Assembly: GCA_007845165.1 (NCBI GenBank)
Contig: SDRH01000002.1
Location: 1 to 34,071 of the forward strand
DNA: 34,071 nucleotides
Source of the DNA: TM7 phylum sp. oral taxon 351
Lineage (GTDB): Bacteria > Patescibacteriota > Saccharimonadia > Saccharimonadales > Saccharimonadaceae
Direction of reading: 5' to 3'
The position numbers and the translations under genes were made by a program. Below, in pieces: positions 3,877 through 34,071 of this stretch; the stretch's first letter is position 1; each line of letters opens with the position of its first letter. Under the pieces are notes generated by a model. That model saw nothing but the letters and a program-made list of their open reading frames with translations, made no database searches and was not told the DNA's origin.

Positions 3877-5076
3877 TTATTTTTGATAATAATCACGCAA
3901 AAAATGTTTTTTGAATTCAAAAAAGTTTTGATTTAGGATGCTTTCGCGAATTTGTTCGGTGAGGCGAATGATGAAGCGTAAATTATGGGCGGTAGCAAGA
4001 TTGTAATATTGACGCTTGAGTTCTGGGTCACCGGATTTCCAAAGTGCACGTAGTTGTCCTCTGGTCCAACCGGCTTTACAGGTAGTACAGTCGCAATCGG
4101 CGTCAAGTAATTCGTTGCTGTCTTTAAATTTACGGAGGTTAATGTCGCCGTATTTGGTGTAGATTTTGCCGTGTCGAGCTTCACGTGTTGGCGCGACGCA
4201 GTCGAAAGTGTCGGCGCCCATTTCGGTACCAATCAAGATGTCATCAGGATGCGAGAGTCCCAGTAAGTGGCGAGGTTTATTTTCGGGTAATTCTTCATTG
4301 CACCAACGCAAAATTTCACCAAGATCTTCTTTGAGAAAGGCGCCGCCGAGACCATAACCGTCAAAGGGCATTTTACCAAACTTTTTAGCGGTACTACGTC
4401 TAAGATCTTCCCAACGTCCACCCTGTAAAACTCCGTAAAGGCTTTGACGATAACCGAGTGAATCGCGCAGTTTAAAATGTTCGTCGAGACTGCGCTTGGC
4501 CCAACGTTCGGTGCGAGCAAGTGCCTCGACATTATATTCGTAGCTGTCGGCTAAGGAAGTAAGTTCATCAAAAGCCATATGAATATCAGCACCGATACGA
4601 CATTGGATCTGCATAGATTCTTCTGGGCCGATAAAATCTGGTTGCCCATCGAAGGGATCACGGAAATTGACACCGTCTTCCGTGACGCGGGCTAAGCGTT
4701 CCTGATGGGCGGTGTTTACTACTCCACGCTCGCGCTCCATAGAGACGACTTTGCCAAGTCCAGACCCTAATGACATCACCTGGAATCCACCGGAATCAGT
4801 GAGGGTTGGTCCATGCCAATTGGACCAAGCAGCTAGACCGCCTGCTTCGGCAATTTCATAAGATTTGCGACGAAGGTGGTAACCATTACTGAGCATGGCT
4901 TGAGCTTTGGTCTGATGAAGTTCTTCTGGTGAAAGAAAGCGAATGGCCCCGGTGGTGCCGACCGCCATAAAGGCTGGAGTCTTAATGTCGCCGTGTGGGG
5001 TATGAATAGTTCCGGCGCGGCCGAGCGCCCCAGGAATACGCTCATTAATTTCGAAAGAAAAACCAGAAGTCGTCAT
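3877..5076 (-). CDS. tgt: Queuine/preQ1 tRNA-guanine transglycosylase
   Basis: 399 aa. It exchanges guanine at the wobble position of GUN-anticodon tRNAs for a queuosine precursor. Visible residues: catalytic Asp94 in DSGGFQV, VLQGG (216-220), the nucleophile Asp292 in FDCVAPTRE, and the zinc site Cys328, Cys330, Cys333 and His364. The substrate-pocket motif, usually GGLAVGE or similar, reads GGAFLKE (244-250). It starts 6 bp after the YhhQ-type transporter gene. No queuosine biosynthesis gene is in the window, so the pair looks like a salvage unit. Whether it takes preQ1, queuine or another base cannot be decided from sequence. Confidence 0.95.
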   Translation of the reverse strand: MTTSGFSFEINERIPGALGRAGTIHTPHGDIKTPAFMAVGTTGAIRFLSPEELHQTKAQAMLSNGYHLRRKSYEIAEAGGLAAWSNWHGPTLTDSGGFQVMSLGSGLGKVVSMERERGVVNTAHQERLARVTEDGVNFRDPFDGQPDFIGPEESMQIQCRIGADIHMAFDELTSLADSYEYNVEALARTERWAKRSLDEHFKLRDSLGYRQSLYGVLQGGRWEDLRRSTAKKFGKMPFDGYGLGGAFLKEDLGEILRWCNEELPENKPRHLLGLSHPDDILIGTEMGADTFDCVAPTREARHGKIYTKYGDINLRKFKDSNELLDADCDCTTCKAGWTRGQLRALWKSGDPELKRQYYNLATAHNLRFIIRLTEQIRESILNQNFFEFKKHFLRDYYQK

Positions 5077-15138: not shown

Positions 15139-16359
15139 TTATTTACGCTCTAGTAAGACTAGACATTCAATGTGTGGTGTGTGTGGGAAGAAATTATATC
15201 CGGTAACATCCGTAATTTGATAATTTTGAGTAAGCCTTTCGAGGTCGCGTACTTGGGTGATAGGATTGCAGGATAGGTAGACAAGTTTTTCGGGAAGTTT
15301 TTGATTGATTGTGTCAATAAGTTTAGAGTCGCAACCAGAGCGCGGCGGGTCAACAATAACGGTTGAATCATGCTCGATATGATCATAAATGTCCTCAGAT
15401 TTGGCGAGGATGCCAGTGATTTCGGAGTTGCCAGTACTAGATTTTACCGATTCAATATTATTTAGTAGTTCACCGTGAGCAAATTTATCAACTTCGACAA
15501 GTGTGAGATTTTTATCTCCAGCAACAGTTAATCCGATGGTACCAACGCCGGAGTAAAGGTCGACGACTTTGTTTTGGTCTTTGATAAAATCTTTGATTTT
15601 TCGTAAAACTTTTTCATATTCTGGAAGATTGATTTGGAAGAATCCGTTTGGAGAGTAGGAAAAATCATAGCCTAAGATTTTGTCAGTAAGATTTTTGAAG
15701 GCGGGATGTGGTTGGTAGTTCTCATAGAGTCCACCACTTACTTCGCCTTGACGATTGCAGCGCAGAAGAAGAGATTGATATTTTCTAGAATCCTCTTGTT
15801 TAGCATTTAGTTTCTCGATAATTTCCATAGCACTCTGATAAATGGCTGGATTTTCGAGCGAAGAAGTGAGGATGGGGATTTTATGATGTGAACCACGACG
15901 ATGAATGGCTGGATGAATCTTAGCAGTTTCATGATCGTAGTAAAGTGAATATTCCATCTTATTGCGATAAAAATATTCATTATCACTTGGCTCAAAGGCT
16001 ATTTTTGGTGCATCTAGCTTAGAAAAAAGTTCTTCGATAATTTGTTTTTTGACTAAATTCTCGTAGCTGATATCTAGAATTTGCCAAGGTGAATTAGAAA
16101 GATAGTGTTCGTCACGCGGCAATACGCGGTGTGGATTAGGGTTTTCAATTTTCAGAGCTACGGCTTCGGTGAGATGGGATTTTTGTTTTAAAACCTGATA
16201 TTCGGTGATTTTTTCTCCTGGCATGGCGTTCCACAGGAAGATTTTTTTACCATCTGAATTGGTCGCAATTCCCTGTCCGGTTGTGGCGAAATTAATAACT
16301 TCCAGTGGGGTTTCTGGGGTGATAATTGGATTTTTCTGCTTCATCTTAATATCTAGCAT
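15139..16359 (-). CDS. TrmA/RlmD-family RNA (uracil-5-)-methyltransferase without the Fe-S cysteines
   Basis: 406 aa. An N-terminal TRAM-like beta domain (about 14-72) is followed by the Rossmann methyltransferase. Visible: GFFQIN (239-244), DLYSGVGTIGL (267-277), VDPPRSGC (336-343), and the nucleophile Cys364 in YLSCNP. It methylates C5 of a uridine in 23S rRNA or tRNA; the target cannot be told from sequence. RlmD-type enzymes hold a 4Fe-4S cluster with cysteines near residues 80-90, but that region here (LPRDEHYLSNSPWQIL) has none, as in RlmCD- and TrmA-like members. The ATG at 16359 is chosen over an ATG at 16344 because a TATATT box ends six bases upstream (leaderless layout). Confidence 0.9.
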   Translation of the reverse strand: MLDIKMKQKNPIITPETPLEVINFATTGQGIATNSDGKKIFLWNAMPGEKITEYQVLKQKSHLTEAVALKIENPNPHRVLPRDEHYLSNSPWQILDISYENLVKKQIIEELFSKLDAPKIAFEPSDNEYFYRNKMEYSLYYDHETAKIHPAIHRRGSHHKIPILTSSLENPAIYQSAMEIIEKLNAKQEDSRKYQSLLLRCNRQGEVSGGLYENYQPHPAFKNLTDKILGYDFSYSPNGFFQINLPEYEKVLRKIKDFIKDQNKVVDLYSGVGTIGLTVAGDKNLTLVEVDKFAHGELLNNIESVKSSTGNSEITGILAKSEDIYDHIEHDSTVIVDPPRSGCDSKLIDTINQKLPEKLVYLSCNPITQVRDLERLTQNYQITDVTGYNFFPHTPHIECLVLLERK

Positions 16360-16365
16360 AAAGTA

Positions 16366-16371
16366 AATATA
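16366..16371 (-). promoter_or_regulatory. -10 box for a leaderless transcript of the uracil-5 methyltransferase
   Basis: Minus-strand TATATT with six bases to the ATG at 16359. There is no Shine-Dalgarno sequence. Confidence 0.5.
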
Positions 16372-16453
16372 AAATTTCGCAAGTTTTTAAATATTAGGAT
16401 TGATAAAATTTCGAGAGTTTATATCTGGTGGTTTGGTGTTTTTAAATTTTTTG

Positions 16454-16503
16454 ATAACTTGCTTATGCTTTGAAAATTAGATTTTAATAACTTGCTTATG
16501 CTT
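16454..16503. repeat. Two perfect 17-bp direct repeats in the trmA-comEC divergent region
   Basis: ATAACTTGCTTATGCTT occurs at 16454-16470 and again at 16487-16503, 33 bp apart (close to three helical turns). A weaker copy (ATTACTTGC) begins at 16542 and overlaps the -35 of comEC. The arrangement looks like tandem operator sites. The rest of the 233-bp gap (16360-16592) shows only the two promoters. Confidence 0.75.
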
Positions 16504-16546
16504 AAGATTTTTTAATCTGAAAAATGTTGTTTTATTTAAAAATTAC

Positions 16547-16575
16547 TTGCCAAAATGCAAAAGTTTTTCTATGTT
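16547..16575 (+). promoter_or_regulatory. Sigma70-type promoter of comEC
   Basis: TTGCCA (16547-16552), a 17-bp spacer, TATGTT (16570-16575). The transcript would start near 16582 and leave a very short leader that includes GGAGG before the ATG at 16593. Confidence 0.55.
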
Positions 16576-16592
16576 GAGCTTGGAGGTTGTAA

Positions 16593-17801
16593 ATGAAAAT
16601 ACGCATAGAAAATTTATTTATGATGAGCCTGATTTTAATTGCGGCTGGGCGAGTGTTTTGTCGGTCTCCAGATTTATTTGGAGCGAGTGAAGATGGTAAG
16701 GCGAGTTTTGCTAGAATGAAGGTCGAAAAACCGTCAAATGAACAGGGTTTTATTAAATTGTTAAAAGATAAGCTCTTAAAATACTCTGAGCACGATGAGC
16801 TGGCGCTTGGTATTAGTTATTTGACTGGTAATAAAGATGAGTTAACTGCATTACAGAAAGATAATATGAAAAATGTAGGTGTAATGCATTTAATTGCGGT
16901 TTCTGGAACCCACCTCGCAATAATTGCTGGAATTCTGAGTCTAATTTTTAAGCATTTTTCAATCATTAGTAAAACTTATTTTGTACTAATATTTTGCTTC
17001 ATCTACGCAATGATGATTGGTTTTAGTCCGTCTATTTTGCGCGCGTTAGTCGGGTTGGCTTTAATGATGACGATTAAATACTTTGGCCGAAACGTTTCGG
17101 TTTATCGAACAACGGTGATGATTATAAGTATTTGTTTGATAATACGACCAGAATTTGTAAATCAAATTGGTTTCTGGCTTTCGGTGTTAGCCTATTTTGC
17201 CATAGTAAAAATAGCGCCGTTAGCTACAAGTTATCTCTATGCGACAAAGGATGATTTGAAGGATCTTTATCGAAGGCCGGGATTTTTAGCAAAATCTTTA
17301 ATTTCGTCAATTGTGATCTCTGTAATAACATTGCCAATCAGCCTATATTTCTTTGGTAAATTTACTTGGCTTTCGATTCTGGCGAATATAGTACTATTGC
17401 CGAGTTTACCAATTGTTATGGGTTCGGTGGGATTGATTGCGGTATTGGGTGATTTATTGATATTTGGGATCAGTTTAGAAAAAATACTAATTTGGCCATT
17501 GAAAATTCATACACACATAATAAATGTTTTGGCTGAACAGGAATCTTCTATTTTAGATTTTCCGAAGAAAAAATGGTGGTATTTTTTGATATGGTTGGTG
17601 GTTTTTATACTAGTTCGATTTGCTGAGAAGAATATCAAGGTAGGCTACAATGATGGCAAAAAGCAAGAGCGAGGGGCGCACGATGGCGATGAAGTTCAAA
17701 AGCTGGATACTTATATCATCAAATGGTATGAGGAGATTGATCTTGGCGGCGCAAATGGAGACCAAAAGCACGGCGTAAATCAAGCTTTCAAGAAAACGTA
17801 A
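16593..17801 (+). CDS. comEC: ComEC/Rec2-type DNA uptake channel (competence domain only)
   Basis: 402 aa. ComEC forms the membrane channel through which single-stranded DNA enters during natural transformation. The hallmark HLIAVSGTHLAII (99-111) and GFSPSILRALVGLAL are present, followed by about eight membrane helices. The N-terminal OB-like domain and the C-terminal metallo-beta-lactamase domain of full-length ComEC (about 700-770 aa) are missing; short forms like this fit CPR bacteria. GGAGG lies six bases before the ATG. From about residue 340 the frame runs antisense to a convergent membrane gene, and this tail (GYNDGKKQERGAHDGDE and on) is hydrophilic and not family-like, so the functional domain probably ends near 340. 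No comEA or comF lies nearby. Confidence 0.9.
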   Translation: MKIRIENLFMMSLILIAAGRVFCRSPDLFGASEDGKASFARMKVEKPSNEQGFIKLLKDKLLKYSEHDELALGISYLTGNKDELTALQKDNMKNVGVMHLIAVSGTHLAIIAGILSLIFKHFSIISKTYFVLIFCFIYAMMIGFSPSILRALVGLALMMTIKYFGRNVSVYRTTVMIISICLIIRPEFVNQIGFWLSVLAYFAIVKIAPLATSYLYATKDDLKDLYRRPGFLAKSLISSIVISVITLPISLYFFGKFTWLSILANIVLLPSLPIVMGSVGLIAVLGDLLIFGISLEKILIWPLKIHTHIINVLAEQESSILDFPKKKWWYFLIWLVVFILVRFAEKNIKVGYNDGKKQERGAHDGDEVQKLDTYIIKWYEEIDLGGANGDQKHGVNQAFKKT

Positions 17802-18059
17802 AATGCCAAAAAGACTGTCTTTATTGGATTTGAAATAAAGAATTAACGGAAAGAGAAAAACTAGGGAGATGTAGATAGTGCTGGAAATTGTATTTTCTGG
17901 GATGCCGTTTAGGAATTTAGCAAATAATTCGGTTAGATCGTTGCCGAAGGTGCTATAAATGGTGTTACCGGCGATAGTGGCAAGTAAAGCAATGCCAATA
18001 TGTCGTCTAAGCATAGAGAATAGAATAAAGAGCAAGACGATTAAAAGCAAAATAATCAT
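17610..18059 (-). CDS. Small membrane protein of unknown function, convergent with comEC
   Basis: 149 aa, not recognised. It has four or five predicted helices: about 1-17, 20-35, 60-78, 85-105 and 115-143. Support for its being real is the even hydrophobic composition and a TATAAT box ending six bases before the ATG at 18059, the leaderless layout seen elsewhere in the window. Its last 63 codons overlap the 3' end of comEC on the other strand. It ends in TAG. It could act with ComEC, but nothing in the sequence shows that. Confidence 0.65.
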   Translation of the reverse strand: MIILLLIVLLFILFSMLRRHIGIALLATIAGNTIYSTFGNDLTELFAKFLNGIPENTISSTIYISLVFLFPLILYFKSNKDSLFGILRFLESLIYAVLLVSICAAKINLLIPFDDISIQLLNFIAIVRPSLLLFAIIVAYLDILLSKSN

Positions 18060-32424: not shown

Positions 32425-34071
32425 TTATGATTTCTTAGTAAAGGCACCTGGTGCACCTGGAGCACCGATACGAGCATAGGTGATATTATTGCCGATGGTG
32501 CCAGTACCGTAGTCGTTGGTGACATTATAGAAGATATTGTTTGAGGCGGTAACCTTGGTGGTAACAAAGCTTTCAGAAGCATAAATGGTTACGAGCCAGG
32601 TTGAATCGTAGAACATCGAAGTGACGTCCTCAAGATTTCGCGTGTCCCAGTTGGTAAGATCAATAACTTTGAGCCAGGTATAGTCGAACATGCTGGCAGC
32701 AGTTACGAGACTTCTAGTGTCGAAAGAACTGAGGTCAAGATAGTTAATATAGGAGTTTTTAAACATTTGGCTCATATTTTTTACTTTGCCGGTATTGAAT
32801 TCAAATTTAACATTTTCACCCTTCATTAATCCACTATCGTTATATGCAAACATACCTTCCATAGTTGTGACATTAGCGGTATCGAGGCTATTGATATTAT
32901 CTATTTTGTCAATTTTGCCGATACCGTAGAACATATAGCTAGTATCGGTGAGGGCTGGAGTTTTCAAGATTGGCAAGACGATTTTGTTTAGAGAGGCATT
33001 AAATTTAAAGAGAGCACGCATGGTGGTAAGATGTGGCATATTGATTTGACCGGATGGCCAAGTAATTGACCCGATAGTATTATTCTTGGCTGTAGCACTA
33101 AATGTTCCTTCCATGGAAGTAACATTGCCAAGTTTGAAATTAGAAATATCAAGATTTGAGGTATAGAAATTCAAAAACATATAGCTCATGTCGGTCAGGT
33201 TTTCCGTATTGAAGGAAGTTGGAAATACAGCTGAGGTGGAAGCGTTTGTACCGTAGAACATATAGGAGGTGTTTTCCACTTTGTTGGCGCGAAGATTCGA
33301 AATAATGTTCTGCATTGGTAGGTAATAATCGCCAGCGAACATGCGACTCATGTTGGTAACGTTGGTGGTGTCGAGGTTGGCTAGATTATTAATAGCACTA
33401 AGCTTACTATTATTCTCAAAAAGTGAGCTCATATCGGTGATATTTGAAGTATTGAAAACGGAAGGGAGAGTAATGGTCTCGAGATTATTGGTGTTTTTAA
33501 ACATACCAACTATTGAGGTTAAAGGACCAGTTTGCATACTGCCGAGATCGATATTTTTAACCTTGCTATTTTGGAACATATAGGACATATCTGTGATATT
33601 GTTGCCGCCAAGATTTGTATTATTGAGTACTAGCTGCGTAGCGGCAGAATCTTTAAACATACCAGAAAGATTAGTGGCGGTGGCAAAATTAATTTTAGGA
33701 AGATTGATGTTTGTGGCATTTTGGGTGCCCTTAAACATATTGGAAAAATCGGTGGTATTAGAAAAAGTGGCTTCAGGTAAATTGATAGTCGAAGCTTTGG
33801 CATTTTCGAACATACCATTGGCGTTCTGTACGTTACTAAAGGCGGCCTTGCCGAGGCTAATAGTGGTGGCGGCGGAATTTTTAAACATGTTGCTAGTGTT
33901 TTGGGTGTTTTCAAAAGTGGAATTACTGAGATTAATTTCTTTAAGAATAGATCCTTCGAAAATCGAGGAGGCATCTTCCATGTCGGAAATAGTCCAGGTA
34001 GAAAGATCGGCAGTCTCAAGATATTTGGCATTTTTGAAAACATTGGAAATATTTTTGGCACTAGACATGAA
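32425..34071 (-). CDS. BspA-like surface protein with DUF285 repeats (5' end outside window)
   Basis: At least 547 aa. The frame stays open to the window edge and the ATG at 34068 is preceded by an in-frame Phe codon inside a repeat, so the true start and signal peptide lie beyond. About 20 repeats of 22-27 residues carry a central (Y/G/N)MF(K/Y/E)N-type core, for example TDMSYMFQNSK, TNVTNMSRMFAGD and KVKNMSQMFKNSY. These form leucine-rich-repeat-like solenoids found in Mycoplasma, lactic acid bacteria and oral bacteria, where BspA binds host proteins. The C-terminus (ARIGAPGAPGAFTKKS) shows neither LPxTG nor a membrane anchor. In a Saccharibacterium it could serve contact with the host bacterium; this is inference. 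Confidence 0.88.
   Translation of the reverse strand, partial: FMSSAKNISNVFKNAKYLETADLSTWTISDMEDASSIFEGSILKEINLSNSTFENTQNTSNMFKNSAATTISLGKAAFSNVQNANGMFENAKASTINLPEATFSNTTDFSNMFKGTQNATNINLPKINFATATNLSGMFKDSAATQLVLNNTNLGGNNITDMSYMFQNSKVKNIDLGSMQTGPLTSIVGMFKNTNNLETITLPSVFNTSNITDMSSLFENNSKLSAINNLANLDTTNVTNMSRMFAGDYYLPMQNIISNLRANKVENTSYMFYGTNASTSAVFPTSFNTENLTDMSYMFLNFYTSNLDISNFKLGNVTSMEGTFSATAKNNTIGSITWPSGQINMPHLTTMRALFKFNASLNKIVLPILKTPALTDTSYMFYGIGKIDKIDNINSLDTANVTTMEGMFAYNDSGLMKGENVKFEFNTGKVKNMSQMFKNSYINYLDLSSFDTRSLVTAASMFDYTWLKVIDLTNWDTRNLEDVTSMFYDSTWLVTIYASESFVTTKVTASNNIFYNVTNDYGTGTIGNNITYARIGAPGAPGAFTKKS

Follow-up and report, generated by a model that had tools for sequence, protein, structure and literature searches.

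The ComE/AgrA-type (LytTR) arrays of Firmicutes consist of direct repeats upstream of competence or surface genes. The CRP-S/Sxy regulon of gamma-proteobacteria comprises uptake genes, including comEC (rec2) and comM, with the site TGCGA-N6-TCGCA, and the ComX/SigX CIN-box of streptococci is a late-competence sigma-factor box with TACGAATA at the -10. A different class of element, the DNA uptake sequence (DUS/USS), is marked by massive over-representation genome-wide, coding regions included.

The repeat array upstream of comEC in TM7 phylum sp. oral taxon 351 shares some features with the first three of these systems. As in the LytTR arrays, direct repeats occur in 21-bp steps, here at two further promoters of the genome (contigs C52 and C3), and the proposed activator would bind on one helix face; in contrast, the comEC copies lie 33 bp apart and the site sequence is unrelated. 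The 21-bp direct repeats first suggested a LytTR (ComE/AgrA-type) regulator, but this candidate was rejected because the LytTR domain (PF04397) is present in 0 of 16 genomes (the 83%-complete draft and 15 relatives), while named control genomes were detected. The likeness to CRP-S lies in a single class of site upstream of comEC and, in relatives, of comM, which would co-regulate uptake and processing; TGCGA-N6-TCGCA has no match with two or fewer mismatches at the comEC promoter (16330–16600). Similar to the CIN-box, a dedicated promoter signature is common to comEC-type genes. However, unlike the CIN-box, this signature covers the -35 and sequence upstream of it, and the -10 is a variable TANNNT. 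No TACGAATA occurs near comEC, and the single match in the window, at 4535, is at chance level.

ComEC-dependent natural transformation has been demonstrated in a Saccharibacterium (Wang et al. 2023, PMC10633639). Neither 'regulat' nor 'transcription factor' is matched in the main text of that paper, which thus describes no competence regulator, and the titles and abstracts of the open-access papers searched contain nothing describing such a promoter motif, a leaderless class or a competence regulon in Saccharibacteria, Patescibacteria or CPR.

A spaced repeat array precedes comEC

The window, the whole 34,071-nucleotide stretch of DNA that was analysed, contains two exact copies of a 17-mer and a half copy on the predicted comEC -35, all present as originally predicted (Table 1). 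The two copies had been called tandem repeats; they are instead spaced direct repeats, 33 bp apart, and the match between them extends to 22 bp with one difference. The half copy follows copy 2 by 55 bp, and the comEC promoter has no intact core at its -35. Within the window, no further 17-mer copies are found at up to three mismatches. The -35 and -10 assignments are consensus readings, and that of the comEC -35 is, from the scan alone, no better than chance. An RNA element or riboswitch in the comEC leader was ruled out, as no known Rfam family matches positions 16200–16800 at E≤1.

Table 1. Features of the comEC upstream region (window positions) and the other array-bearing targets in the genome.
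Feature	Location	Strand	Details
17-mer copy 1 (ATAACTTGCTTATGCTT)	16454..16470	+	core GCTTATGC at 16461-16468, 109 bp upstream of predicted -10
17-mer copy 2, exact	16487..16503	+	core at 16494-16501, 76 bp upstream of predicted -10; followed by A/T tract
Degenerate half copy ATTACTTGC	16542..16550	+	overlaps predicted -35; 8 of 9 letters match
Predicted comEC -35, TTGCCA	16547..16552	+	consensus scan; register compared with C52 and C3 promoters
Predicted comEC -10, TATGTT	16570..16575	+	consensus scan; register compared with C52 and C3 promoters
Ribosome-binding site GGAGG	16582..16586	+	read directly from the sequence
comEC, 402 aa	16593..17801	+	PF03772 only
Divergent tRNA/rRNA (uracil-5-)-methyltransferase	15139..16359	-	PF05958
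Secreted cutinase-like protein	contig C9, locus L001		PF01083, E 8e-20
Cys-repeat surface protein	contig C52, locus L004		repeated CxxGYxxNxxTxRCxK units and C-terminal membrane segment
Small exported TM surface protein	contig C3, locus L005		C-terminal membrane segment

The ComEC protein is short here and in the two nearest comEC relatives (357–410 aa open frame); the longer ComEC of one relative adds an N-terminal DUF4131 to the domain that stands alone in this protein. A 149-aa membrane-type ORF without a Pfam match (window 17610–18059, minus strand) and comEC overlap tail to tail, sharing ~190 bases at the 3' end of comEC.

Genome-wide distribution and geometry

The genome is a 620-kb draft in 53 contigs and is 83% complete. 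It contains three exact copies of the 17-mer, one with one mismatch and two with two mismatches, compared with ~0.0002 exact copies expected by chance in 620 kb and zero matches to the reversed pattern at two mismatches. All six copies lie on the coding strand, 99–148 bp ahead of start codons, and the four remaining matches have three mismatches each and lack the array arrangement. The array is real and non-random: rather than being scattered, the copies all sit upstream of gene starts. Apart from A/T tracts, their flanks are unrelated (identity averages 0.37 on the upstream side and 0.45 on the downstream side), so the copies are not simply one larger duplicated promoter. Copy counts and unrelated flanks together rule out a chance repeat or promoter duplication. 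A DNA uptake sequence is also ruled out, since the 17-mer has only three exact copies in 620 kb and the core is not strongly over-represented; in the loci of relatives, GCTTATGC is only 2.6-fold above the Markov expectation. The 10-mer CTTGCTTATG has only seven occurrences in this genome.

The array lies before comEC and before three genes for secreted or surface proteins (Table 1). The full 17-mer upstream is special to these four promoters, and three of them carry phased copies; at C52, two weaker copies lie further upstream in 21-bp steps. Relative to the ATG, GCTTATGC cores start at -132 and -99 at comEC, at -163, -142, -121 and -65 at C52, at -140, -119 and -63 at C3, and at -148 at C9. 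The resulting steps are 21-21-56 at C52, 21-56 at C3 and, counting to the half copy, 33-55 at comEC; the comEC 33-bp step thus differs from the 21-bp step of the other two arrays, and the final step is 55 bp at comEC and 56 bp in the others. The copy nearest the promoter at C52 and C3 lies immediately against the -35, giving the arrangement [GCTTATG(C/G)][-35]-N17-[TANNNT]. No -10 could be assigned convincingly at C9 at the spacing that the other three promoters show.

The upstream cores lie 129, 108 and 87 bp from the predicted -10 at C52 and 108 and 87 bp at C3, and those of comEC are given in Table 1. These distances share one face of the helix, as had been proposed from the spacing of the copies, with a helical resultant of 0.97 at 10.5 bp per turn (p ~0.009, four independent offsets). 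A regulator-binding array is well supported by the occurrence of copies only before gene starts and by the 21/33/55–56-bp geometry in unrelated promoters.

comEC is the only competence gene that carries the array in this genome. Among the 17-mer matches, comEA, comF, dprA and pilus genes were not recognised, no copy stands before recA (L254), and the 83%-complete draft yielded no comM. No competence gene besides comEC has a match, the remaining targets being secreted or surface proteins. Possible control of the divergent methyltransferase, also raised in the original prediction, finds no support: without exception the sites are oriented toward the comEC-type target, and neither the cutinase (C9) nor the TM-protein (C3) promoter has a divergent partner gene. 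Elsewhere in the window, a gene for a DUF285-repeat surface protein (PF03382, E 6e-53; 32425–34068, minus strand) runs to the contig end, and a similar-looking DUF285-type surface protein is encoded on C24 (L008).

The core in related genomes

The genus is covered by 174 genomes. In G027 (36% identity) and G034 (32%), the nearest comEC relatives, the adjacent methyltransferase gene is the same and the core sits directly on the comEC -35; the promoters read CTTGCTTATGC-TTGCAA-N16-TATAGT and ACTTATGC-TTGCGT-N16-TAGAAT, respectively. The full upstream array is not kept at comEC in either, and among relatives the CTTATGC core is kept at this gene only in these two. Conservation upstream of comEC applies to the core but not to the whole array, and most other genus members have a different element.

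The core recurs at the -35 of orthologous and related targets. It is found at comM in G034, G145 and G134, and as CTTACGC in G027; at cutinase genes in G034, G030 and G032, the G034 protein being 41% identical to that of C9; and at genes for Cys-repeat surface proteins in G034 and G145. An SNase gene in G034 and PemK-like genes in G027 and G034 also carry it. The target list is thus no accident of one genome, since relatives of comEC, the cutinase gene and the Cys-repeat gene carry the core in other species. Upstream core-like copies occur in steps of 20–21 and 55 bp in G134 (L158) and of 55 bp in G034 (L130). Overall, CTTATGCTTG lies upstream of 3/29 comEC and 2/30 comM genes but 0/181 other ORFs. 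All comM relatives that carry a name are 'Candidatus Saccharibacteria' MAGs, mostly from the ruminant gut, which bears out the original placement in Saccharibacteria and points to a ruminant-gut type. As a genus-wide signature, ATAACNNGCTTATGCTT was rejected: it occurs in only 8 of the 174 genomes, and the left half is thus essentially limited to the species itself and a few others.

Several further observations concern these loci. The comEC and PemK-like promoters of G027 (C3:368689 and 483127) are nearly identical across several tens of bases, as if copied. At L119–L121, L127, L158 and L159 (G145, G034 and G134), a further word, CCCCTGTTATTTT, is shared upstream of the core, in some cases as part of an inverted repeat, GTTATTTT..AAAATAAC. 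In G019, G021, G030, G032 and G033, recA and comEC are separated by no more than a few hundred bases.

An alternative promoter version

Most other genus members have no CTTATGC at comEC, and their comEC and comM genes often share the promoter GGTGGGGGG-TTG(A/T)AA-N-TGNTA. The start codon follows the TTG by 35–36 bases, so these messages are probably leaderless. Promoters of this type precede comEC, comM, recA, CdiA_C, LTD and PemK genes (L292–L351 and L352–L431), and GGGGTTG is found within 140 bp upstream of comEC in 11/29 cases, comM in 18/30 and recA in 7/32, compared with 2/181 for other ORFs. In 12 genomes, GGGGTTG-N17-19-TGNTA has 83 sites versus 8 in the reversed control; 47 proteins encoded downstream include 9 CdiA_C, 7 LTD, 5 RecA, 5 ComEC, 3 ComM-type and 3 PemK proteins. 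PemK, comEC and comM are common to both promoter versions.

A GCNTANGC site often lies 20–21 bp upstream of the alternative promoter. In G080, GCGTAAGC stands exactly 21 bases ahead of the TTG in five leaderless-type promoters, several of which have core-like words at 42, and in G028, GCCTAGGC stands 20–21 bases ahead. In 79 sequences upstream of comM, 9 of the 20 GCNTANGC words lie in a single 4-base window, 55–58 from the ATG. It is plausible that GCTTATGC and the palindromic words of the GCGTAAGC/GCCTAGGC type are read by one diverging regulator; the offsets of the two from the -35 differ by 13 bases.

Regulatory interpretation

The most probable explanation of the comEC locus, on the sequence evidence, is a same-face activator array of a putative regulator serving a regulon of comEC plus surface genes. 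A sequence-specific DNA-binding regulator, probably an activator, would bind ATAACTTGCTTATGC, present in one to three direct copies on one helix face roughly 75–130 bp upstream of the -10, and would also bind a further copy at the -35 that is weaker or reduced to the core. The activator would then bring RNA polymerase to promoters whose -35/-10 hexamers are poor, so that comEC and the three secreted or surface genes would be switched on together and DNA uptake coupled to surface or secreted functions. We infer protein binding, activation rather than repression, and competence as the output; simple steric repression is disfavoured because the sites lie far upstream.

The main alternative, which we consider unlikely, is that GCTTATGC is a general promoter element of the genus, extended or -35-proximal, that is read by RNA polymerase, with the upstream copies acting as spares or decoys without a dedicated regulator. 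In this genome (G000), infB is also preceded by CTTATGCTT with a suitably spaced -10, as are sufC, argS and 5S rRNA in G027; a variant form stands before tRNA genes. The 8-bp core is thus a wider promoter element and not competence-specific, given its occurrence before housekeeping genes and 5S rRNA, and the pattern is enriched over the control in part of the genus (14/0 in G027, 15/3 in G034, 10/0 in G032 and 13/1 in G114). However, CTTATGC stands beside the -35 in only 2 of 42 strong TTGACA/TATAAT promoters; its absence from most strong consensus promoters rules out a universal -35 element. In addition, the long 17-mer precedes only four promoters in its own genome, and an element read by polymerase leaves the phased copies 75–130 bp upstream unexplained.

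Two further observations concern promoters in the genus. In relatives, the spacers of strong TTGACA promoters often contain GCTTATGC or GCATAAG words (e.g., TTGACATTTTAGCATAAGTGTGATATAAT), and the promoter CTTATGCTTGGTGTTTTCGAACTTATGTAATATACT recurs near-verbatim in many genus members (G003:C4:344–379, G001:C2:7756–7791 and others), where the downstream sequence has no Rfam match and is possibly an undescribed RNA.

It is improbable that the sites instead define a stress or DNA-damage regulon of recA, comM, nuclease and toxin-like genes rather than a competence regulon. Although several genus members have the core or the GGGGTTG promoter before recA, and PemK- and CdiA_C-type genes are also among the promoter targets, the recA of this genome has no site, the array here precedes comEC and three genes for secreted or surface proteins, and the site is unlike a dyad operator lying on a promoter. 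Surface and secreted proteins are often phase- or stage-regulated, and such targets, together with the A/T tracts after the last copies, would suit a repressor, silencer or nucleoid-protein site for surface-exposed genes, but sites 76–129 bp from the -10 in a common helical register, with weak hexamers, fit activation better and make such a role very unlikely.

For the activator array, the original proposal that it controls DNA uptake is borne out in part: a phased array precedes gene starts, with comEC among them here and the core at comM in relatives, but the other targets in this genome are not competence genes. The competence reading is partly supported, being strengthened by comM in relatives and unproven for this genome itself. 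A broader possibility, which we offer tentatively, is a conserved, so far undescribed regulon of gut Saccharibacteria that would join uptake and processing (comEC, comM and often recA) to secreted, toxin-like and surface proteins. The GC-N-TA-N-GC sites of the putative regulator (GCTTATGC here and GCGTAAGC/GCCTAGGC elsewhere) may diverge from species to species, with position and helical register retained, many targets may be leaderless, and the array in the window would be this genome's own version.

Significance

Saccharibacteria are naturally transformable epibionts for which no described competence regulator was found in the open-access papers searched. With the site defined, few targets to consider and a common register, there is a direct route to the putative regulator. 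Uptake may be bound up with host-cell interaction, as its link to secreted or surface proteins suggests.
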